This document shows positions 14,577-32,074 of a DNA stretch of 33,489 nt, piece by piece. The notes below the pieces were generated by a model. That model was not told the DNA's origin. It was given only the letters and a program-made list of their open reading frames with translations, and did not search any database. The DNA is from Longimicrobium sp. (lineage in GTDB: Bacteria > Gemmatimonadota > Gemmatimonadetes > Longimicrobiales > Longimicrobiaceae): contig NZ_DATIND010000019.1 of the NCBI RefSeq assembly GCF_035474595.1, positions 1 through 33,489 on the forward strand. Direction: 5' to 3'. How positions within the stretch are numbered: position 1 is the first letter of the stretch; each line of letters begins with the position of its first letter. The position numbers were made by a program, and so were the translations under genes.

Positions 14577-15362
14577 TCAGAGCTGCGACGCCGCGAAGAC
14601 CAGCGACAGCAGCACCGGGATGGACCGCACCGCGGCCCCAACCGGGCTCGTGGGCTTGGCGGGAAGGTAGAAGCGGTCGCCCGGGTGGATCCCCATGGCG
14701 TCCAGCGTGCGCCCCTGCGCCAGCGCCTCGCTCAGGATGGGCCCCGACCACACCGGCGTGCCGCCGCGCTCGATGCGCAGCCGCGCGGTGGAGGTGTTCC
14801 CCTGCGGGCCCCCCGCCAGCATCAGCACGTCCGAAACGAGCGCGTCCGCCGGCACCACGTACCAGCCGGGGTTGCGCACCTCGCCCTCCACCGACACCCG
14901 CACCAGCGGCCGCGCGCGCACCACCGGGTTGCGCAGGTAGCGCGACAGGTGCTCGCGCAGCCGCCCCTCGACCTCGGAGCGCAGCAGCCCGTGCAGCGGC
15001 ACGTCGCCGATCTGCGGGAGGAAGAGGACGGTACCCTCGCGCACGGTGAAGGTGTCGGTGAGCGCCGCCTGCCCCTCCACCAGCAGCACCACCTCGTCGC
15101 CCGGCTGCACGTCGCCCTCCTGCAGCCGCGCGCGGATGGACTCGGCGCGGGCGCGGGCCTGGGCGCGGTAGCGGTCGCTGTGCGCCGGCGAGGTGGCGGC
15201 CTGCTCGTAGCTGGCCAGCAGCGCCTGCAGGTCGTTGCGGTTCAGCTGCACGCGGCCGGGGTCCCACCCGGGCTGCGCGGCCGCCTGCGCCCGTGCGCCT
15301 GCGGCGCCGGTGAGGAGCGCGGCGGCCAGGAGGACGAGGGATCGCTTCATCGTGGGGTGCAT
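14577..15362 (-). CDS. Polysaccharide export protein (Wza-like, SLBB domain)
   Basis: This 261-residue exported protein has a signal peptide (MKRSLVLLAAALLTGAAGARAQ) and then the polysaccharide export domain (GDEVVLLVEG, then LPQIGDVPLHGLLRSEVEGR and LREHLSRYLRNPVVRARP). A SLBB domain follows (VSVEGEVRNPGWYVVPADAL, then MLAGGPQGNTSTARLRI). Such proteins form the outer-membrane or periplasmic exit for exopolysaccharide. No lipobox cysteine is present. The C-terminus ends in a hydrophobic stretch (AVRSIPVLLSLVFAASQL) that may be a membrane anchor. The start at 15362 has GGAG nine bases ahead; ATG 15350 is an alternative. A perfect 20-bp palindrome lies 205 bp upstream. Confidence 0.88.
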   Translation of the reverse strand: MHPTMKRSLVLLAAALLTGAAGARAQAAAQPGWDPGRVQLNRNDLQALLASYEQAATSPAHSDRYRAQARARAESIRARLQEGDVQPGDEVVLLVEGQAALTDTFTVREGTVLFLPQIGDVPLHGLLRSEVEGRLREHLSRYLRNPVVRARPLVRVSVEGEVRNPGWYVVPADALVSDVLMLAGGPQGNTSTARLRIERGGTPVWSGPILSEALAQGRTLDAMGIHPGDRFYLPAKPTSPVGAAVRSIPVLLSLVFAASQL

Positions 15363-15484
15363 GGGATGGGGCTCCAGGCGTGGGGGGCGGGCCGCCGCGG
15401 CGCGCCGGAACGCGGCGGGACGACGGGCGGCCAGCGGGAGGGGAGAGTTCAACGATGGTGCCGGGGCGGCGGCGGCGCGCAAGC

Positions 15485-15557: not shown

Positions 15558-15577
15558 GTGTTGCGCGCGCGCAACAC
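15558..15577. promoter_or_regulatory. Palindromic operator or enhancer site
   Basis: A perfect 20-bp palindrome, GTGTTGCG-CGCG-CGCAACAC, whose half-sites TGTTGCG/CGCAACA and 4-base spacing are identical to the site at 19883-19900 upstream of the tyrosine kinase. It is a candidate binding site for the enhancer-binding regulator encoded at 20536-22038. Confidence 0.6.
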
Positions 15578-15801
15578 TCGCGCGGTGACGGAGAGGTGAG
15601 GCGGACCGCACGGCACAGGTGTCGGGCGCGTGCAGCACCCGGGGCGCGTGCCCTGCGGCGTAAGTGTCTGAAAACGCGACGTTTCGCCGCGCCGCGAGGG
15701 AAAGCACGCGACGTGCAGTCGGGTTGCACCAACTCCCCTCCGCGTTCCGCTCGGGCCTCCTCCGCGGGTCCGCGCGGAACGCCCCACTTCTACCGAGTGC
15801 C

Positions 15802-16806
15802 ATGGCCGGACTTCCGACTTCCCCCGCACGCCCCCCCACCGTGCTGGTATGCGGCAACACGGAATGGCTCGCGCGTTCGTTCGAGAGCATCCTGGCGCCG
15901 TACGGCTGCACGGTGGCGCGGGCCTCCGACCACGACCAGGCCTGGGCACGCTTCGACGAGCTGCACCCCGACGTGGTGCTGCTGGAGGCGGAGCACGGGA
16001 TGGACGGTGTGGAGCCGCTCTGCCGCACGCTGCGGGCGCACCCGCGGCTGGGCTCCAGCACGCCGGTGCTGGTGGTGTCGGCGGGCGCCCTGTCGCGCGT
16101 GGACCGCCTGGCCGCCATGCGTGCCGGCGCGTGGGACGCGTTCGGGTTTCCGCTGGACCCCGAGGAGCTGGTGCTGAAGGTGCGCGCGCTGGCCGCGGTG
16201 CGCCGCGAGGTGGTGGAGGCCGAGGAGCGCGGGCTGCTGGACGCGCCCAGCGGGCTGTACAACGCGCGCGGGCTGGCGCGGCGGGCCCAGGAGATGGTGG
16301 CCGAGGCGTACCGCAACCAGCGTCCGCTGGCGTGCATCACCTTCCACGCGGAGCCGGATGGGCCCGAGGGCGCGGAGCGCGACGGCCGCGCCGACGCGCT
16401 GGCCGAGCTGCTGCGGCTGGCCGGGCGCACCTCGGACGTGATCGGGCGGCTGCACCGCGGCGAGTTCGCGGTGCTGGCGCCGGCCACGGGATGGGAGGGC
16501 GCCGAGCGGCTGGCCCGGCGCGTGTGCGGCACCGTGCAGCGCGAGCTGGAGCGCTCGGGCGCGGCGGAGGTGCGCGTGTACAGCGGGCGCTTCGCCATCG
16601 ACGGCGCGGGGCAGCCGCGGGTGCAGGCGGCCGACCTGCTGGCCAACGCCGCCGAGGACCTGCACGCGGCGCTCAGCGCGCTGGGCGGCAACGGGAACGG
16701 CAAGGGGAAGAAGAACGGCCAGGGGAACGGCAGCGCGCACGCCGACGCCCCGGCACCCCCGCCCGCCCAGGCCGCCACGCTCCCCGCGCCGCCGGCGGCC
16801 GCGTAG
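15802..16806 (+). CDS. Pseudo-receiver protein with degenerate GGDEF domain
   Basis: This 334-residue soluble protein has a receiver-like domain at about residues 13-130 and a GGDEF-like domain at about 145-295, followed by a disordered Gly/Asn/Lys and Ala/Pro tail. Both domains have lost key residues. The phosphoacceptor Asp is replaced by Glu62 (DVVLLEAEHGMDG), the conserved Lys by Phe116 (FGFPLDP), and GGDEF reads HRGEF (218-222). It should therefore neither be phosphorylated nor make c-di-GMP, and may act as a fixed-state scaffold or ligand-binding protein. It diverges from the export gene and lies next to the tyrosine kinase gene, which points to a role in exopolysaccharide control. ATG 15802 is the start of the homologous region. 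A terminator follows. Confidence 0.83.
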   Translation: MAGLPTSPARPPTVLVCGNTEWLARSFESILAPYGCTVARASDHDQAWARFDELHPDVVLLEAEHGMDGVEPLCRTLRAHPRLGSSTPVLVVSAGALSRVDRLAAMRAGAWDAFGFPLDPEELVLKVRALAAVRREVVEAEERGLLDAPSGLYNARGLARRAQEMVAEAYRNQRPLACITFHAEPDGPEGAERDGRADALAELLRLAGRTSDVIGRLHRGEFAVLAPATGWEGAERLARRVCGTVQRELERSGAAEVRVYSGRFAIDGAGQPRVQAADLLANAAEDLHAALSALGGNGNGKGKKNGQGNGSAHADAPAPPPAQAATLPAPPAAA

Positions 16807-16832
16807 GATTCGAGCGTCTGCAGCGAACAACG

Positions 16833-16864
16833 AGAGCCCCGGCGATCACCGGGGCTCTTCTTTT
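16833..16864 (+). terminator. Terminator of the pseudo-receiver gene
   Basis: A perfect 10-bp stem (AGAGCCCCGG with CCGGGGCTCT), 6-base loop and TCTTTT tail starts 27 bases after the stop codon. Confidence 0.85.
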
Positions 16865-16908
16865 GTCGCATGCAGGAGACTCGCTCGATCTCCAATGGAT
16901 CGCTGATC

Positions 16909-16977
16909 TCACGCGGAGACGCGGAGACGCGGAGGAACAGCACGAGCTTTTCTCCGCGGCTCGGTGTCTCTGCGTGA
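16909..16977. repeat. Dispersed GCGGAG-rich palindrome, copy 1
   Basis: The arms TCACGCGGAGAC and GTGTCTCTGCGTGA pair with one G-T wobble, and inner GCGGAG pairs with CTCCGC. The same layout recurs at 23391, 27593, 30896 and 32964. Confidence 0.7.
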
Positions 16978-17033
16978 TTCGAATCAGCTGGAGACGCGGT
17001 GTGCTTCGCCGGACCGCGTGCTCCACGGATTCT

Positions 17034-17100
17034 GGATCATTTGGCCTGCAACCTTCTGCGTGGAAGCTGTTTGCGGTGTGGCGGGCCTCGGGATGACGTC
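17034..17100 (-). repeat. Third dispersed intergenic repeat, copy 1
   Basis: Read on the minus strand it begins GACGTCATCCCGAGGCC, continues GCCACACCGCAA and ends TTGCAGGCCAAATGATCC. The plus-strand stretch 33065-33134 has the same blocks in the same order. The outer blocks can pair (ATCC-GAGGCC with GGCC-AA-GAT). Confidence 0.55.
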
Positions 17101-17198
17101 CCGGCGGGTGGGATCGGGATCGGGTTGCGTGAGGGATGCGCGCCCGGAGGGCCGGGAACCCGGCGGGGCGGAAACAGCGATGCATCCGGAAACGAGAC

Positions 17199-17232
17199 GG
17201 GCCCCCGGCGGAGACGAATCCGCCGGGGGCCC
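17199..17232 (-). terminator. Terminator of the tyrosine kinase gene
   Basis: A perfect 14-bp stem (GGGCCCCCGGCGGA and its complement) with a 6-base loop. On the minus strand it is followed by GTCTCGTTTCC. It lies about 100 bases after the kinase stop codon. Confidence 0.75.
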
Positions 17233-17334
17233 GGCGCCGTTGGCAACGGCGGTATCGTTGCCTACGGCGCGCGCAGCCCGGTTCCGCGCCTCAGGCGCGG
17301 AACACGCCCAGAAACCTGCCGTTCACCCGTCCGC

Positions 17335-19722
17335 TCAGACCGTCTGCAGGCGCGGCACGTCGGCGCCGGCGTCCTCGGGGAGCACCTGGTAGTCGTAGCC
17401 CTTCAGGTACCGGTACGCGCGGTACGCGCCCTTGGGCGAGATGCCGTTGATGACGGCGCCCAGCACGCGGATCGGCAGCCGGTCCACCAGGTCCAGGTTC
17501 CACTCGGCCAGCTGCCGGTCGGTGGCGCCGTTGCGCAGCACCAGCACCATGTCGCGCGTGAGCGTGGCCAGCACCAGCGGGTCCACGCAGGCGCCGATCG
17601 GCGGGCTGTCGATCAGGATCACCCGGTAGGCGGAGCGCAGGTCGGCCACCAGCTCGGCCATGGCCGGCGTGCTCAGCATCTCCGGCCCGCGCCCGGCCCG
17701 CGTGCCCCCGGCGATCAGGTGCACGCCCTCGTACGGGGTGCGCTGCACCACGTCGGCCCGGGTCGCGGTCCCCGCCAGGTAGTCGCTCAGCCCCGGCTTG
17801 CGCTCGCACCCCAGGACGCGGTGCAGCGTGCCGCGGCGCAGGTCCGCGTCGATCACCAGCACGCGGTGCCCCTGCTCGGCGAAGGTGAGCGCCAGGTTGG
17901 CCGAGACGAACGACTTGCCGTCGCCGCTCCCGGGGCTGGTGATGGTGACCACCAGCGGGCCCGCGGCGCCGCTGGCGTGCACCAGCCCCAGCCGCAGCGC
18001 GCGGAAGGCCTCGGGAAGCTCCGGCGGCGGCGAGGCCGGGCGCGGCCCCGACGTGACCACGCGGGCGCGGGGGATGGCGCCCAGGATGGGCAGCCCCAGC
18101 CCCTCGGTGACCTGCTCGGGATAGGCCAGCCGCGGGTTGGCCTTGTCGTACAGCACGGCCCCCAGCACGCCCACCGCCAGCCCGCCCAGCGAGAAGAGGA
18201 GGATCCACTGCAGCCGCGGGTCGCGGCTGGGCGAGTAGGGCACGGTCGCCTTGTCCAGCACCCGCACGTCGGGGATCGTCGTCACCGCGGAGAGGCGCGC
18301 CTCCTCGTGGCGCTGCTGCAGGAGCTTGTACAGGTCCTCGGCGATCTCCACCCGCCGCGTGAGCCGCGCCTCCTCGATGGCGCGCGGGGGGATGCCGCGC
18401 AGCTGCGTGGAGGCCGAGGAGATGAGCCCGTCGATGGCGTGCTGCCGCCCGGCCAGCTCGGCGTCGAGCCGCGAGGCCAGCCCGGGGATGGTGGAGCGCT
18501 CCAGCGTGGTCACCTGCTCGCGCACCTTCTGCAGCGGCACGTACAGGTCGGTGAACTGCCCGCTCATGGCCCGCAGCTCGGCGCGCTTGGCGGTCAGCTC
18601 GGTCAGCGCCTGCACCAGCGCGGACGACTTCTGCACCGAGGGAATGGCCTCCACCGCACCCACCGAGGCCGCGTCCTGCGTGAGCGCGCGCGCCAGGTCG
18701 TCGCGGTCGCGCTGGATCTGCTCGCGCTCCATGTTCAGCGAGAAGTAGTTCGACAGCACCGGGTTCTGCGTGACCTCGAGCCCCGGCGTGACCGGCGAGC
18801 CGCGGTCGGCGGGAAGGGTGATGGTGCGCACGCGGAAGCCCTGCAGCGCCGACTCCTCGCGCGCCAGCGAGCCGGCCGCGTACCCCAGCTGCTCGCCCAG
18901 GATGCGCTCCAGCTCCTGCAGCCGCGAGCGCTTCAGGTCGCCCGCCACGGTCACGTAGCGGTCGGTGAGCGTGTTCAGCGTGGAGGCGATGCGCTCCGGG
19001 TCCTTCCCCGACAGCTCCAGCCGCAGGAAGTTGCCGTTCTCGGCCATGTGGGTGACGACTTCCGTCCCCAGCCGCACCGCCGCGTCGCGGGGCGTCACGA
19101 CGGTGAAGTCCACCTTCCCCGCGCGGCGCAGCGCCGCCACGTCCGGGTGCCAGCGGAAGCCCACCGTGGCGCCCACCGCCCCGCCCGCGTTCCCCACCTC
19201 CACGGTGGCGCCCCCGCGCGTGGCCAGGCGGTAGCGGCGGCCGCCGTTCTCCAGGCTCAGGCGGTACTCGCCGGGGCGGAAGCGCTCGGCCAGCTGGAAG
19301 TCGGCGAACACCGGCGCCGCGCCGCGCGTGGGCGTGTCGAGGTACAGCTTCTCGCTGCGCACCACCGGGTCCAGCACCGTGTACGAGCGCAGCAGCTCCA
19401 CCCACGCCTGCGAGCGCAGCAGCTCGGGCGAGCGCAGCGGGCCGCCGTCGCGCACCCCCAGGTTGCCGCCGTCGGAGTCGATCCACACGGTGGAGCGCGC
19501 CGCGTAGTCGGGGTGCGCGTGCCGGGCCACCAGGAGCCCCGCGCCCACGCCCAGCGCCACGGGCACGGGCAGGATCCAGCGGAAGCGGTAGAGGGTGGCC
19601 GCCAGCCGCTGCAGCCCGGTGTTGCGCGTCCGGCGGGGGCCGTCTTCCAGCGACGACAGGCCGGGGCGGATGCGTTCGGGGATCGGCGTGAGGAGCGGGG
19701 CCGGCACGGGAAGGTTCTGCAT
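17335..19722 (-). CDS. Polysaccharide biosynthesis tyrosine autokinase (Wzc/BY-kinase type)
   Basis: This 795-residue inner-membrane protein couples a Wzz chain-length domain to a cytosolic BY-kinase. Membrane segments lie near residues 47-66 (FRWILPVPVALGVGAGLLVA) and near 520-540 (LQWILLFSLGGLAVGVLGAV), with a large periplasmic part between them. The kinase has Walker A GSGDGKS (Lys603), Walker A' VIDADLRRG (Asp625, Asp627) and Walker B ILIDSPP (Asp705). A C-terminal tyrosine cluster (Tyr767, 770, 772, 776, 778) is the autophosphorylation site. It should set polymer length and work with the export protein. The start at 19722 is preceded by no clear ribosome binding site; the frame stays open far upstream, but that is a GC-rich shadow. 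A sigma-54-like promoter and an 18-bp palindrome lie upstream. No partner phosphatase is seen. Confidence 0.92.
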   Translation of the reverse strand: MQNLPVPAPLLTPIPERIRPGLSSLEDGPRRTRNTGLQRLAATLYRFRWILPVPVALGVGAGLLVARHAHPDYAARSTVWIDSDGGNLGVRDGGPLRSPELLRSQAWVELLRSYTVLDPVVRSEKLYLDTPTRGAAPVFADFQLAERFRPGEYRLSLENGGRRYRLATRGGATVEVGNAGGAVGATVGFRWHPDVAALRRAGKVDFTVVTPRDAAVRLGTEVVTHMAENGNFLRLELSGKDPERIASTLNTLTDRYVTVAGDLKRSRLQELERILGEQLGYAAGSLAREESALQGFRVRTITLPADRGSPVTPGLEVTQNPVLSNYFSLNMEREQIQRDRDDLARALTQDAASVGAVEAIPSVQKSSALVQALTELTAKRAELRAMSGQFTDLYVPLQKVREQVTTLERSTIPGLASRLDAELAGRQHAIDGLISSASTQLRGIPPRAIEEARLTRRVEIAEDLYKLLQQRHEEARLSAVTTIPDVRVLDKATVPYSPSRDPRLQWILLFSLGGLAVGVLGAVLYDKANPRLAYPEQVTEGLGLPILGAIPRARVVTSGPRPASPPPELPEAFRALRLGLVHASGAAGPLVVTITSPGSGDGKSFVSANLALTFAEQGHRVLVIDADLRRGTLHRVLGCERKPGLSDYLAGTATRADVVQRTPYEGVHLIAGGTRAGRGPEMLSTPAMAELVADLRSAYRVILIDSPPIGACVDPLVLATLTRDMVLVLRNGATDRQLAEWNLDLVDRLPIRVLGAVINGISPKGAYRAYRYLKGYDYQVLPEDAGADVPRLQTV

Positions 19723-19789
19723 GGGAACGTCCGGACGTTTCAGGAGGGAGCGGGCGCGCGGGACCGCGGGCGCCGCGCGTGCCGGACCT

Positions 19790-19805
19790 TGCAACGACGG
19801 GGCCG
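19790..19805 (-). promoter_or_regulatory. Sigma-54-like promoter of the tyrosine kinase gene
   Basis: On the minus strand CGGCCCC-GTCG-TTGCA has the required GG and GC ten bases apart, a perfect TTGCA -12 box and a partial -24 box. Transcription would start near 19779, about 57 bases before the start codon. Confidence 0.5.
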
Positions 19806-19882
19806 GGCACGGCCGAACGCGCGCGCGCGCGTAGCCGCCCCCTTTCCCGCCCGCCGCGGGGGCCCGCCCGCGGGTCCCGAAG

Positions 19883-19900
19883 TGTTGCGCGGACGCAACA
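19883..19900. promoter_or_regulatory. Palindromic enhancer-type site upstream of the tyrosine kinase
   Basis: A perfect inverted repeat TGTTGCG-CGGA-CGCAACA. Its centre is about 112 bp upstream of the predicted start of transcription, the usual place for sites of sigma-54 activators. The half-sites are identical to those at 15558-15577. Confidence 0.62.
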
Positions 19901-20535
19901 GCTGTGGCCGCCCCACATCTTCCGGTGCGGGGGACGGCGCCGTTGCTGGCCCTTCGTGCCCCACGCCGGGGCGGAGCGGGCGCGACGGCTTTCCCGCCGA
20001 CTCTCGACAGGCCCTGTACAACACGGGATGCGGAGTTTGTTTGTCGCGAGGAGATCGGCCCTGCGGGCGCGAACCGGTCGGCGGCGCGTCCCCTTGCGGC
20101 GAGCGGAAAACCGGGGCCGGAGCGCACGTTTCGTTGCAATCGTGTAATGCCTCGGGGCACCCCGCATCGAGGCGGGCGGGGGATGACGGAACAATGTGCT
20201 TGACGGCTATCTGTTTCTGCTTCAACTTCTTGCGGCCGAACGACCCGCTCTCCGGCCCTCTGGTCTGCCTCTTGCTCCGGGGTCCCTTCGCTGACCCCTG
20301 GCGCGCCTTCCCGAGTGACCGCTCCCCTTTCCTTCTCCCGTGACCCCGCTGCTTTCGCGGGAGTCGGGATCGCGCAAAGGGAGAGATCCCTGCCGGGCGC
20401 CAGGCATGCGCCCGATGTTCGATCGGATACGGCGAATGCATTCTCCGGCGTCCCCGCAGCCGGACCGCGTTCATGGTGACCATCCCAACATCCTTCGTCC
20501 GGAGCTCGTCGTCCGGAGTCCACCGGGAGCCCGCG

Positions 20536-22038
20536 ATGCCCGATCCCGTGACCTCCACCGCCGTACCCGCGCCCGCCGAAGGCGCGGCCTCCATCTCCCT
20601 CCTGCTGGTCGAGGACGAGTACACGCTGCGCGACAGCTGCGCCAACGTGCTGCGGCTGGACGGCTACACGGTCACGGCGTGCGCCCACGGCCGCGAGGCG
20701 GTGCAGACGCTGGCGCGGCGCGCCTTCGACGTGGCGCTGGTGGACCTGTACCTGGACGACCTGTCGGGGCTGGAGGTGCTGGCGGCCTGCCTGCAGGCCA
20801 ACCCGCGCTGCCTGGTGGTGGTGATGACCGGCAGCCCCAGCGTGGACTCGAGCGTCGAGGCGCTGCGGCAGGGCGCGTGGGACTACCTGCCCAAGCCCTT
20901 CTCGGCCACCCACCTGCAGATCCTGGTGGGGCGCGCCGCCCGCGCGGTGGCCGAAGCGCGCGCCGAGGAGGCGCTGCGCTCGGCGGCCGAAAGCGGCGGC
21001 CCGCGGCAGAGCCACAGCCGCGCCATCACCCTGCTGGGGCGCTCGCCGGCCTTCGTGCGGGCGGTGGAGCTGGCCCGCCGGGTGGCGCAGACCGACGCCT
21101 CGGTGTTCATCACCGGCGAGAGCGGCACGGGCAAGGAGATGATCGCGCAGTTCATCCACTCCGAGAGCCGGCGCGCGCAGCGGGCCATGGTGGCGGTGAA
21201 CTGCGCCGCGCTTCCCGAGAGCCTGCTGGAGTCGGAGATGTTCGGCCACGTGAAGGGCGCCTTCACCGGCGCCATCCGCGACAAGGTGGGGCTGCTGGAG
21301 GCGGCCGACGGGGGCACGTTCTTCCTGGACGAGCTGACGGAGATGACGCAGACGATCCAGGCCAAGCTCCTGCGCGTGCTGCAGGACGGGATCGTGCGCC
21401 GGGTGGGAAGCGAGACCACCGACGCCACGGTGGACGTGCGGGTGATCGCCGCCACCAACCGCGACCCGTCCGAGGCCACCGACACCGGCGTGCTGCGGCG
21501 CGACCTGTACTACCGGCTGAGCGTGGTTCCCATCTACCTCCCGCCGCTGCGCGAGCGTCCGGAAGACGTGCCGCTGCTGGCCGAGCACTTCCTGGGCTTC
21601 TACTGGCGCCGCCACCGCGAGGCCGGGGCGCCGGCGCCGCGCCTGTCGCCCGCCGCGGTGTCGCTGCTGCAGGCGCGCCCCTGGCGCGGCAACGTGCGCG
21701 AGCTGCAGAACCTGATGGAGCACACGGTGGTGCTGGTGGCGCCCGGCGCCGAGGTGCACCCCGACGACATCCCCTTCCGCGACGACTCGCCGCGCGGCGG
21801 GCGGCCGCGCGCGGGCGCCGAGCCGCAGCCGTACGCGCTGGTGGGCGACGAGCCCTACCACAGCGCGCGCGACCGCGTGCTGGCCGAGTTCGAGCGGATG
21901 TACCTGATGTCGCTGGTGGAGCGCGCGGGGGCCAACATGTCGCGCGCGGCCAAGATCGCCGGCGTGGACCGCACCACGCTCTACCGGCTGATGGAAAAGC
22001 ACGGGCTGCATCGCGACACCGCGATCCGCGTGGACTGA
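20536..22038 (+). CDS. Sigma-54-dependent response regulator (NtrC family)
   Basis: This 500-residue protein has three domains. The receiver (about 20-135) has phosphoacceptor Asp70, Thr98 and Lys120, all intact. The AAA+ domain (about 165-400) has Walker A GESGTGKE (194-201), the sigma-54 contact loop GAFTGA (241-246) and Walker B FFLDEL (262-267). A Fis-type helix-turn-helix (NMSRAAKIAGVDRTTLYRLM) lies near the C-terminus. It should bind enhancer sites and activate RNA polymerase with sigma-54 when phosphorylated. The histidine kinase gene follows after 22 bases, so the pair is very likely cognate. By position it plays the part of PrsR in known PEP-CTERM systems, though orthology was not tested. 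ATG 20536 follows GGGAGC by five bases. Confidence 0.93.
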   Translation: MPDPVTSTAVPAPAEGAASISLLLVEDEYTLRDSCANVLRLDGYTVTACAHGREAVQTLARRAFDVALVDLYLDDLSGLEVLAACLQANPRCLVVVMTGSPSVDSSVEALRQGAWDYLPKPFSATHLQILVGRAARAVAEARAEEALRSAAESGGPRQSHSRAITLLGRSPAFVRAVELARRVAQTDASVFITGESGTGKEMIAQFIHSESRRAQRAMVAVNCAALPESLLESEMFGHVKGAFTGAIRDKVGLLEAADGGTFFLDELTEMTQTIQAKLLRVLQDGIVRRVGSETTDATVDVRVIAATNRDPSEATDTGVLRRDLYYRLSVVPIYLPPLRERPEDVPLLAEHFLGFYWRRHREAGAPAPRLSPAAVSLLQARPWRGNVRELQNLMEHTVVLVAPGAEVHPDDIPFRDDSPRGGRPRAGAEPQPYALVGDEPYHSARDRVLAEFERMYLMSLVERAGANMSRAAKIAGVDRTTLYRLMEKHGLHRDTAIRVD

Positions 22039-22060: not shown

Positions 22061-23065
22061 ATGGCGACCGCCGATCCGTCCGCGCCGGGAGAGCCCCTGG
22101 CCGCGGTATCGCACGCCGCGCGGGAGGCGGCCGCCGAAGCCGGCCGCGGCGGCGGCGACGCCGAGCTCCTGGCGGAGCTGGCCGCGCGGGTCGACTCCGA
22201 GTGCGCGCGGCCCGCCCCCGTTGCCCCCACCTACTCGCTGGTGCTGCTGGACCGGCTGCGCGCCGCCGTGGTGGAGCAGTGGCTGGCCGGCGGCGATCCG
22301 CCCCCTCCCGGCGACGCGGCCGGCGTGCTGGCGGCGTTCGACCGCGTGCGCGAGCAGCTGCTGCACCCCGAAGGCGCCCTCTCGCCGCTGGAGCCGCTGG
22401 CCGAGTTCGCGCACGACCTGCGCTCTCCGCTCACCTCCATCCTCTTCCTGGCCGGCGCGCTCCGCGAGGGGCAGAGCGGCGCGCTTTCCGACGCACAGCG
22501 GCGGCAGGTGGGGATCATCTACAGCGCCGCGCTGGGAATGGTGTCGCTGGTGAGCAACACCATCGAGCTGAACCGGGGCAGCGAGGGCGGCGAGCGCTCG
22601 CCGATGTCGCTGCGGGGGATGTTCGAGTCGCTGCGCGACGTGGTGGCGCCGCTGGCCGAGGAGAAGCAGGTAGAGGTGCGGCTCTGCATCCCGGCCGACG
22701 ACCACCGCATGGGCGACCCCGTGGCGCTCAGCCGCGTGCTGCTGAACCTGGCGGTGAACGCCCTGCACTCCACCGACCAGGGGTGGGTGGAGCTGGCGGC
22801 CGAGCCCCAGGGCGAGGCGGCGATGCGCTTCTGGGTGCGCGACACCGGACGCGGGATCGAGCCCGAGGCGCTGGACCCGGTGGGCGGGCTGTACCGGCCG
22901 CGCCCGCACGCGCGCGGCTACGGCTTCTCCGGCACGGGCCTGGGCCTCGGCATCTGCCGCAAGCTGCTGGCGCAGATGGGCGGCGAGCTGGGCGTGGACA
23001 GCAACGGCGGCCAGGGCACCGCGTTCTGGTTCACCCTCCACCTTCCCCCCGCTCCGCCGCCGTAG
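22061..23065 (+). CDS. Soluble histidine kinase, partner of the sigma-54 regulator
   Basis: This 334-residue kinase has no membrane segment. The N-terminal 100 residues are helical and unassigned and may be a cytosolic sensor. The HisKA part contains His118 in EFAHDLRSPLTSIL. The ATPase part has the N-box around Asn233 (NLAVNAL), G1 DTGRG (261-265) and G2 GTGLGLG (291-297). AGAAGGGGG just before the ATG supports the start. Co-transcription with the regulator is likely. In exosortase-bearing proteobacteria the analogous kinase PrsK is usually a membrane protein with a GAF domain, so this is a different layout. Confidence 0.9.
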   Translation: MATADPSAPGEPLAAVSHAAREAAAEAGRGGGDAELLAELAARVDSECARPAPVAPTYSLVLLDRLRAAVVEQWLAGGDPPPPGDAAGVLAAFDRVREQLLHPEGALSPLEPLAEFAHDLRSPLTSILFLAGALREGQSGALSDAQRRQVGIIYSAALGMVSLVSNTIELNRGSEGGERSPMSLRGMFESLRDVVAPLAEEKQVEVRLCIPADDHRMGDPVALSRVLLNLAVNALHSTDQGWVELAAEPQGEAAMRFWVRDTGRGIEPEALDPVGGLYRPRPHARGYGFSGTGLGLGICRKLLAQMGGELGVDSNGGQGTAFWFTLHLPPAPPP

Positions 23066-23452: not shown

Positions 23453-23594
23453 CCGATTCTGTTGGTCGAGGTTCGATATCCATCCTCCCGAATTCGGGAA
23501 ATCCGGGGGCGCGCTGCGTCGGCGGAGCTCGCGGAGATGTGCCTCCGCCGACTTCGCTGAATCCGCATGGTGTCTGCGGTTTGCCTCGATCAGA

Positions 23595-23618
23595 CCTGCG
23601 CGGGCAGGCGGCTTTTTT
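23595..23618 (+). terminator. Terminator downstream of the kinase region
   Basis: A short stem (CCTGC, GCGG, GCAGG) is followed by CGGC and six T's. It probably ends transcripts from the regulator/kinase pair. Confidence 0.5.
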
Positions 23619-23678
23619 CCTCCGGATCCTCCGCGCCCTTCGTAAGAGACCATCCGTTCTCTCCTGTGCCGGATGGAC

Positions 23679-23719
23679 GTGTGGCGGGGGCGCGCCACGG
23701 GTGTGGAGCCCCGCCACAC
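23679..23719. promoter_or_regulatory. 11-bp inverted repeat upstream of the sugar transferase operon
   Basis: GTGTGGCGGGG (23679-23689) and CCCCGCCACAC (23709-23719) are perfect complements 19 bases apart, and inside them GGTGTGG (23700-23706) pairs with CCACACC (23714-23720). It could be an operator or an alternative hairpin. Confidence 0.4.
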
Positions 23720-23736
23720 CTGTGGGTGGGCCACCA

Positions 23737-23743
23737 CGCAACA
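23737..23743. promoter_or_regulatory. Single half-site CGCAACA
   Basis: This half-site is identical to one arm of the palindromes upstream of the export and kinase genes. The other arm matches at only two of seven positions. It lies about 105 bp upstream of the predicted start from the promoter at 23814. Taken alone it could be chance. Confidence 0.3.
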
Positions 23744-23813
23744 GCGGGCCCCGCCGCGTTCCCATCATCCCCCAAGTCGTTTGCAATCAACAGGTTGGCG
23801 GAAAGGCACGGCC

Positions 23814-23829
23814 GCGCACGGGCATTGCC
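23814..23829 (+). promoter_or_regulatory. Sigma-54-like promoter of the sugar transferase / exosortase operon
   Basis: GCGCACG-GGCA-TTGCC matches five of seven -24 positions and all of TTGC, with CG in place of the GG. It shares the block GGCATTGC at the same spacing with the element at 31158 ahead of the second PEP-CTERM gene. Start of transcription would be near 23840, about 48 bases before the GTG. Confidence 0.42.
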
Positions 23830-23887
23830 TTGTCCCATCCCGCTGTCGCAGGCCCTCCCCGGAACCCCTTCGCCGGAGCTCCCTGCC

Positions 23888-24664
23888 GTGCCCCCCCAGA
23901 TCGCCACCCGACGCCGGATGCCAACCCGGACGACCTTCTCCTTTCCGCGCCTTGCCGCGGCCGACGAGCTGATGCTGGCTCCGCCGGCGCCCGGGATCTC
24001 CATCCCGCGCCCGCTGGAAGGGATCCGCCTCGACATCGACCCCATCCGCCTGGTGAACGTGGCCGCCGCGCTGCTGCTGCTGGTGCTGGCCGCGCCGGTG
24101 ATGGCCGTGATCGCGCTGCTGGTGAAGCTGACCTCGCCGGGCCCCGTGGTGTTCCGCCAGGTGCGCGTGGGCGTGGACCGCCGCTCGCCGGGAAGCGGGT
24201 CGCGCTGGCGCCGCACCTACGACTACGGCGGCCGCCTCTTCACCATGTACAAGTTCCGCACGATGTCGGCGGCGTCGGACGACCGCCTGCAGGTGTGGGC
24301 CCAGCCCGACGACCCGCGGGTGACCGCGCTGGGGCGCGTGCTGCGCAAGTACCGCCTGGACGAGCTGCCGCAGCTGGTGAACGTGCTGCGCGGCGACATG
24401 AACCTGGTGGGGCCGCGCCCCGAGCAGCCCCGCATCTTCGCCGAGCTGCGCGACCAGGTGGACCGCTACGCCGAGCGCCAGCGCGTTCTTCCCGGCATCA
24501 CCGGGTGGGCGCAGGTGCAGCAGCCGTACGACCGCTCGGTGGACGACGTGCGCGGCAAGGTGCGGCTGGACCTGGAGTACATCGCCACGCGCTCGGTGCG
24601 GCGCGACGTGCAGATCCTGATGCGTACCGTGCCGGCCGTGCTGCTGCGCCGCGGCGGGTGGTAG
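23888..24664 (+). CDS. Sugar transferase (phosphoglycosyl transferase, initiating step)
   Basis: The 258-residue protein is of the monotopic phosphoglycosyl transferase family (bacterial sugar transferase, WcaJ/EpsL-like). One hydrophobic segment (LVNVAAALLLLVLAAPVMAV) is followed by the cytosolic catalytic domain with FTMYKFRTM, the Asp-Glu pair in YRLDELPQLVNVLRGDMNLV, GPRPE and GITGWAQV. It should transfer a sugar phosphate onto undecaprenyl phosphate to start repeat-unit assembly. The GTG start at 23888 is chosen because GGAG lies nine bases upstream; ATG 23918, which would give 248 residues, has no such site. It is the first gene of a tightly packed operon with the exosortase. Confidence 0.9.
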   Translation: MPPQIATRRRMPTRTTFSFPRLAAADELMLAPPAPGISIPRPLEGIRLDIDPIRLVNVAAALLLLVLAAPVMAVIALLVKLTSPGPVVFRQVRVGVDRRSPGSGSRWRRTYDYGGRLFTMYKFRTMSAASDDRLQVWAQPDDPRVTALGRVLRKYRLDELPQLVNVLRGDMNLVGPRPEQPRIFAELRDQVDRYAERQRVLPGITGWAQVQQPYDRSVDDVRGKVRLDLEYIATRSVRRDVQILMRTVPAVLLRRGGW

Positions 24665-24666
24665 CC

Positions 24667-25551
24667 GTGACCGGGCTGGCCCTTCCCGCCCGAGCCGGCG
24701 CCCGCGCCCGGCTGGCCGCTCCCGCGGCGGCCGCGGCCCCGCTGGTGGCCGCGGCCGCCTTCGCGCTGCTCTACTGGCGCCCGGCGCTCACGCTGGTGCG
24801 GGACTGGTGGAGCGACCCCAACGCCGGCCACGGGCTGCTGCTGGGCCCGGTGGCGCTCTGGCTGGCCTGGCGCGCCGGCGTGGTTCCCCGCCCCGCCCCG
24901 CGGCACCGGGCGGGCATCGCGCTTCTTACGCTGGCCGTGGCCATGCGCTGGCTCTCGGGGCTGGCGGCCGAGCTCTTCACCATGCGCCTGTCGCTGCTCC
25001 TGGCCGCGGCCGCGCTGGTGGTGTTCGCCTGGGGATGGGGGCAGCTGAAGCGGTGGTGGCTTCCCGCGGGGCTGCTCCTGCTCTGCATTCCCCTTCCCGC
25101 CGTGGTCACCGCGTCGCTGGCGCTGCCGCTGCAGTTCAAGGCCTCGGCGCTGGGCGCGGCCATGCTGGAGTGGCGCGGGATCCCGGTGCGCCTGGCGGGG
25201 AACGTCATCTCCCTTCCCGGGCGCAGCCTGTTCGTGACCGAGGCGTGCAGCGGGCTGCGCTCGCTGGCCGCGCTCCTGGCCATCGCCCTGCTCACCGGCG
25301 GGCTGTGGCTGCGCACCGCGGGCGCGCGGGCGGTGCTGCTGGCCGCGGCGCTGCCGGTGGCGGTGGTGCTGAACGGCGTGCGCGTGTTCCTCACCGGCTT
25401 CCTGGTGGTGTTCGTGGACCCGCGCCTGGGCGACGGCTTCATGCACCTGACCGAGGGGTGGCTCATCTACCTGGCCGCGCTGGGGATCCTGGCGCTGATG
25501 GCCTCGGGGCTCACCCGCGTGGAGCGCCGCCTGGCGCCGGTGCCCGCGTGA
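24667..25551 (+). CDS. Exosortase (PEP-CTERM sorting transpeptidase)
   Basis: This 294-residue inner-membrane protein has about eight membrane segments and the three exosortase catalytic residues: Cys194 in TEACSGLRSL, Arg239 in LNGVRV and His260 in MHLTEGW. The family removes the C-terminal PEP-CTERM signal from exported proteins and attaches them, probably to a polysaccharide or other carrier. The GTG start lies two bases after the sugar transferase stop codon, and the end overlaps the EpsI-family gene as GTGA. Two PEP-CTERM proteins are encoded in this window (26771 and 31301). Its subclass cannot be set by eye. Confidence 0.92.
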   Translation: MTGLALPARAGARARLAAPAAAAAPLVAAAAFALLYWRPALTLVRDWWSDPNAGHGLLLGPVALWLAWRAGVVPRPAPRHRAGIALLTLAVAMRWLSGLAAELFTMRLSLLLAAAALVVFAWGWGQLKRWWLPAGLLLLCIPLPAVVTASLALPLQFKASALGAAMLEWRGIPVRLAGNVISLPGRSLFVTEACSGLRSLAALLAIALLTGGLWLRTAGARAVLLAAALPVAVVLNGVRVFLTGFLVVFVDPRLGDGFMHLTEGWLIYLAALGILALMASGLTRVERRLAPVPA

Positions 25552-26198
25552 GCGCCCGCGCCTGGTGGGCGCCTGCCGCCGTGCTGGCGGCCGGGGCGGT
25601 GCTGGTGGCCGCGGGCGGGCGGCAGCGCTCGCTTCCGCTGCGCGCGCCGCTGGCCGAGACGGTGCCGGCGCGCGTGGGCCCCTGGGAGGGCCGCGACCGC
25701 ACCATCGCCGACGAGGAGCGCCGGGTGGCGGGGATGGACGACTACCTGATGCGCGCGTACGTGCCGGCGGGGGTGGCCGGGGCCGCCACGGCCTTCTCGC
25801 TGTACGTGGGCTACTACCGCAGCCAGGCGCAGGGACGCACCATCCACTCGCCGAAGAACTGCCTGCCGGGCGCGGGGTGGGAGGCGCTGACCACCGGGCG
25901 CATGCGCATCGCCACCCAGGCCGGCACGGTGGAGGTGAACCGCGCGCTGCTGCAGAACGCGGGGCGGCGCGCGCTGGTGCTGTACTGGTACCAGGGGCGG
26001 GGGCGGGTGACGGCCGACGAGTACGCGGTGAAGTGGAACCTCCTGCGCGACGCGGCGCTCAGCCGCCGCACCGAGGAGGCGCTGGTCCGGGTGATCGTGC
26101 CGGTCGACGGCACCGAGGCCCGGGCCCAGGAAGTGGCGGTACAGGCGGCCCGCGCGGCCGTTCCCGCCGTGGCGCGCGCGCTCCCCCAGCCCGGGTGA
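25548..26198 (+). CDS. EpsI-family exosortase-associated protein
   Basis: The 216-residue protein belongs to the EpsI family (DUF3485), which accompanies or is fused to exosortases. An N-terminal hydrophobic segment (APAAVLAAGAVLVAAGG) anchors it, and the rest is probably periplasmic. The family hallmark HSPKNCLPGAGW sits near residue 103, after VGYYRSQAQGRTI; WYQGRGR and the EYAVKWNLLRDA segment also fit. Its biochemical role is not established; context ties it to exosortase-linked polysaccharide. The GTG start overlaps the exosortase stop codon, so translation is coupled. Confidence 0.88.
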   Translation: MSARAWWAPAAVLAAGAVLVAAGGRQRSLPLRAPLAETVPARVGPWEGRDRTIADEERRVAGMDDYLMRAYVPAGVAGAATAFSLYVGYYRSQAQGRTIHSPKNCLPGAGWEALTTGRMRIATQAGTVEVNRALLQNAGRRALVLYWYQGRGRVTADEYAVKWNLLRDAALSRRTEEALVRVIVPVDGTEARAQEVAVQAARAAVPAVARALPQPG

Positions 26199-26774: not shown

Positions 26775-27487
26775 AACGCTTTCGTGCCCGCGCGCTGATG
26801 CTCGCGGCCGGGGCGGCGCTGGTGATGCTTCCCGCGCAGGCCCACGCGGTAAGCTTCCTGGGGGAGAAGTTCATTGCCCTGGGCGGATCGGTCACGGTTC
26901 GCTACATCGGCAGCAGTGCCGCGTACTTCAACACCATGCAGTGGTTCCGCAACGGCTACGGCGCGGTGAACTACACCGGCAACGTGGTCGACTACACCAA
27001 CTCCGGCACCGTCGACGACCTGTTCTACAGCCAGAACGGGTACCGGCTGGACGGCACGCCCGTGCCCGGCAGCCCCACGGGAAGCGTGGTGGTGCTGGGC
27101 GGGGGCTACTCGTTCGGCGTGGGCGAGGAGGTGCTGCTGGGCCTGTTCGTGCACAACGAGTACGAGGAGGGGCCGGGCGGCGCCAACTGGAAGACCCAGG
27201 ACGGCGACGACTACACCTACTTCTCCGGCCCGCTGTCGCGGAACAAGGACAGCCGCTTCCACCTGTCCATCACCGACCTGGGCGGCGGGACCTTCCAGTT
27301 CCGCGGCGGCTGGGAAGACACGGTGGACGGCGGCGACGAGGACTACAACGATCTCGAGTTCGAGATCTCCGGAGTCACCGTCACGCCCGAGCCGGTGTCG
27401 ATGATGCTGATGGCGACGGGCCTTGCCGGCCTGGGGGGCTTCGGCTTCCGCCGCCGCCGCTCGAACCGCACGCTCACGCCGGCCTGA
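26771..27487 (+). CDS. PEP-CTERM sorting domain protein (DUF4114-like)
   Basis: This 238-residue exported protein has an N-terminal signal peptide (MKRFRARALMLAAGAALVM, cut probably after AHA) and a C-terminal sorting signal: P206-E-P208 followed by a hydrophobic helix (MMLMATGLAGLGGFGF) and the basic end RRRRSN. The middle resembles DUF4114 domains: LFVHNEYEEG, WKTQDGDDYTYFS and GWEDTVDGGDEDYNDLEFEI, an acidic stretch that may bind calcium. It is the likely local substrate of the exosortase, being the last gene of its operon, and should end up on the cell surface or in the exopolysaccharide. AAGGAG precedes the ATG, and a terminator follows. Confidence 0.93.
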   Translation: MKRFRARALMLAAGAALVMLPAQAHAVSFLGEKFIALGGSVTVRYIGSSAAYFNTMQWFRNGYGAVNYTGNVVDYTNSGTVDDLFYSQNGYRLDGTPVPGSPTGSVVVLGGGYSFGVGEEVLLGLFVHNEYEEGPGGANWKTQDGDDYTYFSGPLSRNKDSRFHLSITDLGGGTFQFRGGWEDTVDGGDEDYNDLEFEISGVTVTPEPVSMMLMATGLAGLGGFGFRRRRSNRTLTPA

Positions 27488-30957: not shown

Positions 30958-31032
30958 TGCCCGGGGGTGTCGACCCGGTCGCGCCACGGCTGATGCGGCG
31001 GCGCAACGGCGGTGCGGGCGCACCACGACCAG

Positions 31033-31050
31033 TGTTGCGGGCGGCCCACA
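31033..31050. promoter_or_regulatory. Imperfect enhancer-type site upstream of the second PEP-CTERM gene
   Basis: TGTTGCG-GGCG-GCCCACA keeps one arm perfectly (7/7) and the other at 4/7. Its centre is about 142 bp upstream of the start predicted from the element at 31158. Confidence 0.42.
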
Positions 31051-31157: not shown

Positions 31158-31173
31158 GGGCGCGGGCATTGCG
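31158..31173 (+). promoter_or_regulatory. Sigma-54-like promoter of the second PEP-CTERM gene
   Basis: GGGCGCG-GGCA-TTGCG has GG and GC ten bases apart, five of seven -24 positions and a full TTGC. It shares the block GGCATTGC with the element at 23814. The start of transcription would be near 31184, about 117 bases before the ATG. Confidence 0.5.
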
Positions 31174-31300: not shown

Positions 31301-32074
31301 ATGCGCAGGAAAGTCGTAGTCGCGGCGGTGCTCGCGCTCAGCGCGGCCACTGCCCACCCGGCCCACGCCAGCCCAGGGTATCGTGAGTGGATGAACGTCT
31401 GCGGAGCCGCGCTCCCGGGCCTCACCACCTGCGCGTCCGTGAAGCTGCAGGTCGTGGGCAACAACGTGACCCTCTGGGTGAAGAACCTGTCGGGGCTCTA
31501 CGGTTCCTACCAGAACTTCGTCTTCACCTCGATCTCGTTCTTCAACGCGAACGCGGCGAACGGCATCCCCGACGCGGTCGAGGGGAACGTCACCACCATG
31601 ACGGGCCCGTACCGCACCTCGAACGCCAGCAACCCGCCGCCCTCGTGGGCCGTCGTGAACAACGGCGGCGCGGGCGGAACGTTCGGCCTGGACTTCGACG
31701 CCGGGGTGAACGGGAACGACGGCTCAATCGCCAGCAGCTGCGGCAACATCCTTCCAGGGGGCAGCAACAACCTGTGGATGACGCCCACCTGCGGGTCGGG
31801 GAACGTGACCGACGGGGGCCCGGACTTCGGCTGGGTGACCATGACCTTCAGCATGACCGGGGCGTGGAACCTGGACGCGACCGACACCCAGATCCAGATC
31901 CACGCGCAGAGCGACCAGGGTTCGGTGAAGTGCACGACGGGCGTGGACTGCGACCCGACGAGCACCACGCCGGAGCCGGTGACGCTGGCGCTGGTGGGCA
32001 CGGGGCTGGCCGGGCTGGCCGGCGCGTACCGCCGCCGCCGCCGCAACGGCGGCGAGGGCGAAACGCCTGCCTGA
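31301..32074 (+). CDS. PEP-CTERM sorting domain protein, cysteine-containing
   Basis: This 257-residue exported protein has a signal peptide (MRRKVVVAAVLALSAATAH, cut probably after AHA) and a C-terminal sorting signal: P224-E-P226, hydrophobic LALVGTGLAGLAGA and basic RRRRRN. The mature part is beta-rich and Asn/Gly/Thr-rich, without a family I can name, and has six cysteines (VCGAALPGLTTC, SSCG, PTCGSG, KCTTGVDCD) that probably form disulfides after export. It should be processed by the exosortase at 24667 and held at the surface or in the matrix. GGAGG lies eight bases before the ATG. It is transcribed alone, with its own sigma-54-like promoter and terminator. Confidence 0.92.
   Translation: MRRKVVVAAVLALSAATAHPAHASPGYREWMNVCGAALPGLTTCASVKLQVVGNNVTLWVKNLSGLYGSYQNFVFTSISFFNANAANGIPDAVEGNVTTMTGPYRTSNASNPPPSWAVVNNGGAGGTFGLDFDAGVNGNDGSIASSCGNILPGGSNNLWMTPTCGSGNVTDGGPDFGWVTMTFSMTGAWNLDATDTQIQIHAQSDQGSVKCTTGVDCDPTSTTPEPVTLALVGTGLAGLAGAYRRRRRNGGEGETPA

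Follow-up and report, generated by a model that had tools for sequence, protein, structure and literature searches.

Candidate activator sites of an NtrC-type regulator at an exopolysaccharide and exosortase island in Longimicrobium and related Gemmatimonadota

The locus and its genes

The window, which is the whole stretch of DNA analysed (33,489 nucleotides from Longimicrobium sp.), carries on its minus strand the genes for a polysaccharide export protein with Poly_export and SLBB domains (14577-15362) and for a polysaccharide co-polymerase/BY-type tyrosine autokinase (17335-19722). Between them, on the plus strand and divergent from the export gene, lies a gene for a response-regulator/degenerate GGDEF protein (15841-16806, with an ATG also possible at 15802). 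This protein is kept beside the export and kinase genes in many relatives, and a link to c-di-GMP or other signalling is possible. Further genes on the plus strand encode an NtrC-type response regulator, named EbpR here (20536-22038, alternative start 20473), an adjoining histidine kinase of 334 aa (22061-23065), a polyprenyl glycosylphosphotransferase with a Bac_transf domain (23567-24664, the true start of which may be nearer 23918) and an exosortase (24667-25551; PF09721, 1.5e-58), which is followed by its partner, an EpsI-like DUF3485 protein (25581-26198). A probable PEP-CTERM protein is encoded at 26798-27487 (plus strand), its score of 19.8 bits being slightly below the Pfam cut-off of 20.7, and a PEP-CTERM protein with the C-terminal sequence TPEPVTLALVGTGLAGLAGAYRRRRR at 31301-32074 (plus strand). 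Exosortase (PF09721) and PEP-CTERM proteins (PF07589 matches) are found in one island, as in XrtA/PEP-CTERM systems.

The window and a second contig, C25, are probably neighbours, because their counterparts in the sister genome G008 form one contiguous island. The stretch C25:58-100 kb encodes a polymerase, a flippase, a glycosyltransferase, an amidotransferase, a phosphotyrosine phosphatase and an outer-membrane barrel protein, together with an XrtA-type polysaccharide deacetylase that scored above the TIGR03006 cut-off. A proline-rich PEP-CTERM gene at L017:15131-15844 was overlooked by coding-potential calling, and the strongest sigma-54 match among the sites examined in the source genome (G000) lies ahead of it.

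Pfam searches and inspection of the sequence found the domains of EbpR intact, with a receiver, an AAA+ domain (Walker A GESGTGKE, and GAFTGA) and a Fis-type helix-turn-helix, as is characteristic of the NtrC family. Distant orthologues across the phylum have almost the same recognition helix, AARxAGVDRTTLYRLM. The adjoining histidine kinase is likely to be the partner of EbpR; only HisKA and HATPase domains were recognised in it, and no sensor domain. A conserved block upstream of EbpR (20196-20276) contains a promoter-like pair, TTGACG-N17-CAACTT, plus the sigma-54-like element TGGTCTGCCTCTTGCT (20261-20276, plus strand), and might represent a dual promoter or autoregulation. The element itself is conserved and is a candidate sigma-54 promoter of the EbpR gene, which tentatively suggests that EbpR is autoregulated.

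The palindrome in the window and the genome

The original prediction had placed perfect copies of the palindrome TGTTGCG-N4-CGCAACA at 15559-15576 (TGTTGCGCGCGCGCAACA) and 19883-19900 (TGTTGCGCGGACGCAACA), ahead of the export and kinase genes, and both 18-mers are found at exactly these coordinates, between genes and 5' of the two minus-strand genes, where they are candidate upstream activator sites. The distances that it gave, 205 bp and about 170 bp, were close without being exact: the export ATG (15362) is 196 bp from position 15559, or 207 bp if the ATG at 15351 is used, and the kinase ATG (19722) is 160 bp from position 19883. Whole-genome scans, made as pattern searches, recovered these two copies and no other perfect match in the 6.57-Mb genome. 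The expectation under a first-order Markov model is 1.6e-4 perfect copies per window and 0.03 per genome, so the claim that two copies are far beyond chance holds, and the motif is neither scattered at random nor mostly genic, its only perfect copies being the two intergenic sites. With up to three mismatches allowed the window contains 11 matches, where shuffling predicts 2.1 (maximum 6).

Several sites were not part of the original prediction. Two degenerate palindromes, TGATGCGGCGGCGCAACG (30991-31008) and TGTTGCGGGCGGCCCACA (31033-31050), lie 42 bp apart, or four helical turns, upstream of the window PEP-CTERM gene, and the region that they span (30991-31050) is inside a block almost invariant in G008. 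Two of the four sites in the genome with a single mismatch, C25:69401 and C25:95343, are also intergenic and lie in the same polysaccharide island; the remaining two are on contigs C156 and C151. There are six sites with two mismatches or fewer in C25:58-100 kb. The deacetylase/VanZ site (C25:88395) is conserved in G008 by half only, and the LMW-phosphatase/OMP site (C25:95343) is eroded there, with a 22-bp sigma-54-like block retained.

Sigma-54 promoter elements

The genome encodes RpoN (sigma-54), and each perfect palindrome has a sigma-54-like -24/-12 element between it and its respective gene. That of the kinase, CGGCCCCGTCGTTGCA (19790-19805, minus strand), is 95 bp past the palindrome and 67 bp before the ATG, while that of the export gene, CGGCACCATCGTTGAA (15448-15463, minus strand), is 113 bp past the palindrome and has GA rather than GC at -12. 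The export palindrome is kept in G008, where the corresponding element is CGGCACCAACGTTGAT, likewise at 113 bp. Palindrome and promoter are also paired ahead of two PEP-CTERM genes, the one in the window, with the element GGGCGCGGGCATTGCG (31158-31173, plus strand) 125 bp past the site at 31033, and the one on C25, with the element TGGTATCGGCGTTGCT, which is identical in G008. All four promoters retain in G008 the palindrome, the element and, without a base of difference, the spacing between them (95 bp for the kinase, 113 for export, 125 for the window PEP-CTERM gene and 59 for that on C25). The targets have a dyad upstream of a -24/-12 promoter, which is the arrangement of sigma-54 enhancer-binding proteins. 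The palindrome sites C25:80044 and C25:88395 are without a clear -24/-12 element, and that at C25:84731 overlaps a called gene.

A scan with the sigma-54 consensus yielded many false positives within genes, and a profile built from the kinase promoters of relatives was used instead. Matches to a simple consensus over the whole window, at 22542 and 29404, fell within genes and were set aside. An element resembling CGGYMCC-N3-CTTGCT was present in the kinase promoters of 14/14 regulator-positive relatives, at positions -67 to -110, usually about 90-115 bp from the palindrome. When the profile trained on this first set was applied to 35 distant kinase promoters, 17 contained a match, compared with 2.0 in shuffles (maximum 6). 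An element resembling TGGGCCYRNNNTTGC occurs upstream of the kinase in the distant loci L306, L318, L320, L326, L327, L333, L344 and L345; it may represent a lineage-specific form of the -24 box.

Conservation among relatives and across the phylum

Orthologues of the tyrosine kinase were found in 15 of 41 related genomes, 14 of which also had an EbpR orthologue, defined by at least 58% identity and clearly set apart from the paralogues, the nearest of which reach no more than 50%. Kinase starts in the relatives were located by tblastn, the gene caller, which was trained on the GC-rich source genome, having missed genes in L108, L113 and L117. An unbiased search of the 400 bp upstream of 13 kinase orthologues ranked TGTTGC-N6-GCAACA first among 53,248 dyads, with a score of 20 compared with 12 for the best unrelated dyad and shuffle maxima of 9-13. 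With the source genome left out, 12/13 kinase promoters had a site within two mismatches, as against 0.1 in shuffles. The one genome with the kinase and export polysaccharide locus and no EbpR orthologue (G019, contig C105, locus L179) had neither the palindrome (best match four mismatches) nor a -24/-12 element in its kinase upstream region. Genome-wide, sites with at most one mismatch numbered 38 in 13 EbpR-positive genomes against 13 matches to the reversed control, and 11 against 12 in 11 EbpR-negative genomes. The looser pattern TGTNGC-N6-GCNACA was uninformative over the 41 genomes, its counts falling under those of the reversed control because of the GC background. An exosortase was present in only six of the 41 relatives, all of them EbpR-positive, and the regulon is therefore probably linked primarily to exopolysaccharide, to which the PEP-CTERM genes look like an addition.

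The named sequences most closely related to the kinase are from Gemmatimonadota. EbpR was found in 128 of 298 genomes sampled across this phylum, and in 40 loci from other families the kinase was usually divergent from the regulator and next to it. In 35 of these loci an unbiased search again ranked TGTTGC-N6-GCAACA first, here among 36,864 dyads, with a score of 28, no unrelated dyad scoring above 14. The candidate site of the first set was thereby replicated independently, and the original expectation of conservation in related genomes was borne out, the dyad that ranked highest ahead of the kinase being the same in both genome sets. Sites within two mismatches were found in 20/35 distant kinase promoters, as against 0.6 in shuffles (maximum 3 in 200 shuffles), and were not found in the other 15. 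The excess of exact copies in the distant genomes was modest, with 16 against 6 in the control for EbpR-positive genomes and 4 against 2 for EbpR-negative ones. Many relatives in this phylum, which has been little studied, carry the same palindrome at the corresponding gene cluster. Genome G063 yielded no tyrosine kinase, yet it has an exact copy of the palindrome about 310 bp ahead of its EbpR gene.

A model for regulation by EbpR and its alternatives

It is very probable that the neighbouring regulator lands on the palindrome. The original prediction had read the sites as targets of the NtrC-type regulator encoded at 20536, and this is well supported by the intact activator, the sigma-54 elements and the co-occurrence with the regulator. 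A probability of about 0.87 is given to the reading that the palindrome is an upstream activator site of the adjacent EbpR, which would switch the export, kinase and PEP-CTERM genes via sigma-54. Computation has shown the sites and that they are conserved, that they pair with sigma-54 elements and co-occur with EbpR, and that the EbpR domains are intact; binding, the phosphorylation partner and activation are inferred. EbpR would be phosphorylated, probably by the adjacent histidine kinase, and would then bind TGTTGC-N6-GCAACA about 60-125 bp upstream of sigma-54 -24/-12 promoters. Bound EbpR would loop to RNA polymerase-sigma-54 and open it, which would turn on, within a single exopolysaccharide/exosortase island, the genes for export, for the tyrosine kinase and for the PEP-CTERM surface proteins. 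The effect of EbpR would be expected to be activation and not repression.

Other readings of the same sites were considered. With 21 clear Sigma54_activat proteins encoded in the genome, EbpR included, and the nearest EbpR paralogue (on contig C14) 47% identical, the sites could be sigma-54 activator sites bound by a different NtrC-type activator, with EbpR controlling something else. This is unlikely given that throughout the phylum EbpR is encoded divergently, next to the kinase promoter that bears the site, that genomes with a paralogue of about 48% identity and no EbpR have no excess of the motif, and that the site is absent from the one kinase locus without an EbpR orthologue. What singles EbpR out among the 21 activators is its genetic linkage and co-occurrence. 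It is more improbable still that the palindrome is the operator of a dimeric repressor or activator independent of sigma-54, with the sigma-54-like elements coincidental. A perfect dyad with 7-bp arms is equally typical of dimeric repressors and some sites in the island are without a good -24/-12 element nearby, yet such an element accompanies the palindrome, usually about 90-115 bp off, in all 14 EbpR-positive kinase promoters, it recurs in 17 of the 35 independent loci where 2 were expected, and four promoters keep base-exact spacing in G008. That the palindrome arose by chance or is a structural element (a terminator, a cruciform or the remnant of a mobile element) is scarcely credible, even in a window of 73% GC where GC-rich self-complementary words are common, when 0.03 perfect copies are expected in the genome and, in each of two independent sets, no other dyad among tens of thousands ranked higher upstream of the kinase.

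Activation by EbpR through sigma-54 remains the preferred reading, and the predicted Gemmatimonadota regulon joins exopolysaccharide genes with PEP-CTERM/exosortase genes. The chances are even that EbpR and the palindrome constitute an ancient, phylum-wide exopolysaccharide regulon, independent of the proteobacterial PrsK/PrsR system, which later recruited PEP-CTERM/exosortase genes where these are present; sigma-54 control of PEP-CTERM/exosortase sorting would then have evolved more than once.

Relation to known systems

PEP-CTERM genes of Proteobacteria were described as having, in their upstream regions, a 17-nt activator motif that ends in TTTACA and precedes a sigma-54 element by about 63 bp; PrsR and PrsK were the proteins that fitted this motif, which was reported in Proteobacteria only, and further regulators and DNA motifs were said to await discovery (Haft et al. 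2006, PMC1569441). The predicted EbpR system is analogous to PrsK/PrsR, with a different operator. In both, the gene for an NtrC-type regulator lies by a histidine kinase gene and near exopolysaccharide genes, and PEP-CTERM genes are preceded by an activator motif and then a sigma-54 element, spaced by about 63 bp there and by 59-125 bp here. The operators differ, however, being a 17-mer ending in TTTACA in the one and TGTTGC-N6-GCAACA in the other, and aligned upstream regions of PEP-CTERM genes contained no TTTACA motif, TGTNGC-N6-GCNACA-like dyads being found instead. EbpR fails the PrsR model TIGR02915, with 347.8 bits against a cut-off of 502.6, and the histidine kinase failed the test for the transmembrane kinase PrsK (TIGR02916), which was absent from its 25 best NCBIfam matches. 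Unlike the proteobacterial system, that of the Gemmatimonadota also has sites ahead of export and tyrosine-kinase genes and occurs in relatives without an exosortase.

TGT...ACA dyads are the sites of NifA-type activators. In Desulfovibrio, TGT and ACA half-sites with spacings of 9, 11 or 12 bp have been reported for groups of bacterial enhancer-binding proteins (Kazakov et al. 2015, PMC4641369). The palindrome described here shares these half-sites, 12 bp apart, whereas its inner bases (TGC/GCA) and its target set are particular to it. The PEP-CTERM gene pepA of Aquincola tertiaricarbonis has been found experimentally to be RpoN-dependent, and it has a promoter of the -24/-12 type as well as a predicted enhancer (PMC9850573); unlike the genes described here, it lies in a proteobacterial PrsK/PrsR context. 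Literature searches found no work that unites Gemmatimonad, PEP-CTERM and exosortase, and nothing relevant on the TGTTGC-N6-GCAACA motif or on the EbpR regulator. EbpR would be a case, in another phylum, of the undiscovered regulators and motifs that Haft et al. anticipated, with its regulator, operator, promoters and targets listed, and control of the biofilm matrix and of surface-protein sorting in Gemmatimonadota is now directly testable.

Further sites in the genome

The single-mismatch site on C151 is located at the 5' end of a gene call that resembles a metallopeptidase. That on C156 is intergenic and precedes a TPR-like gene, and a sigma-54-like element is found 103 bp from it. The palindrome and sigma-54 element at this locus (L020:3637-4489), far from the island, accompany a gene for a TPR-like protein of 208 aa, which is possibly an extra member of the regulon.
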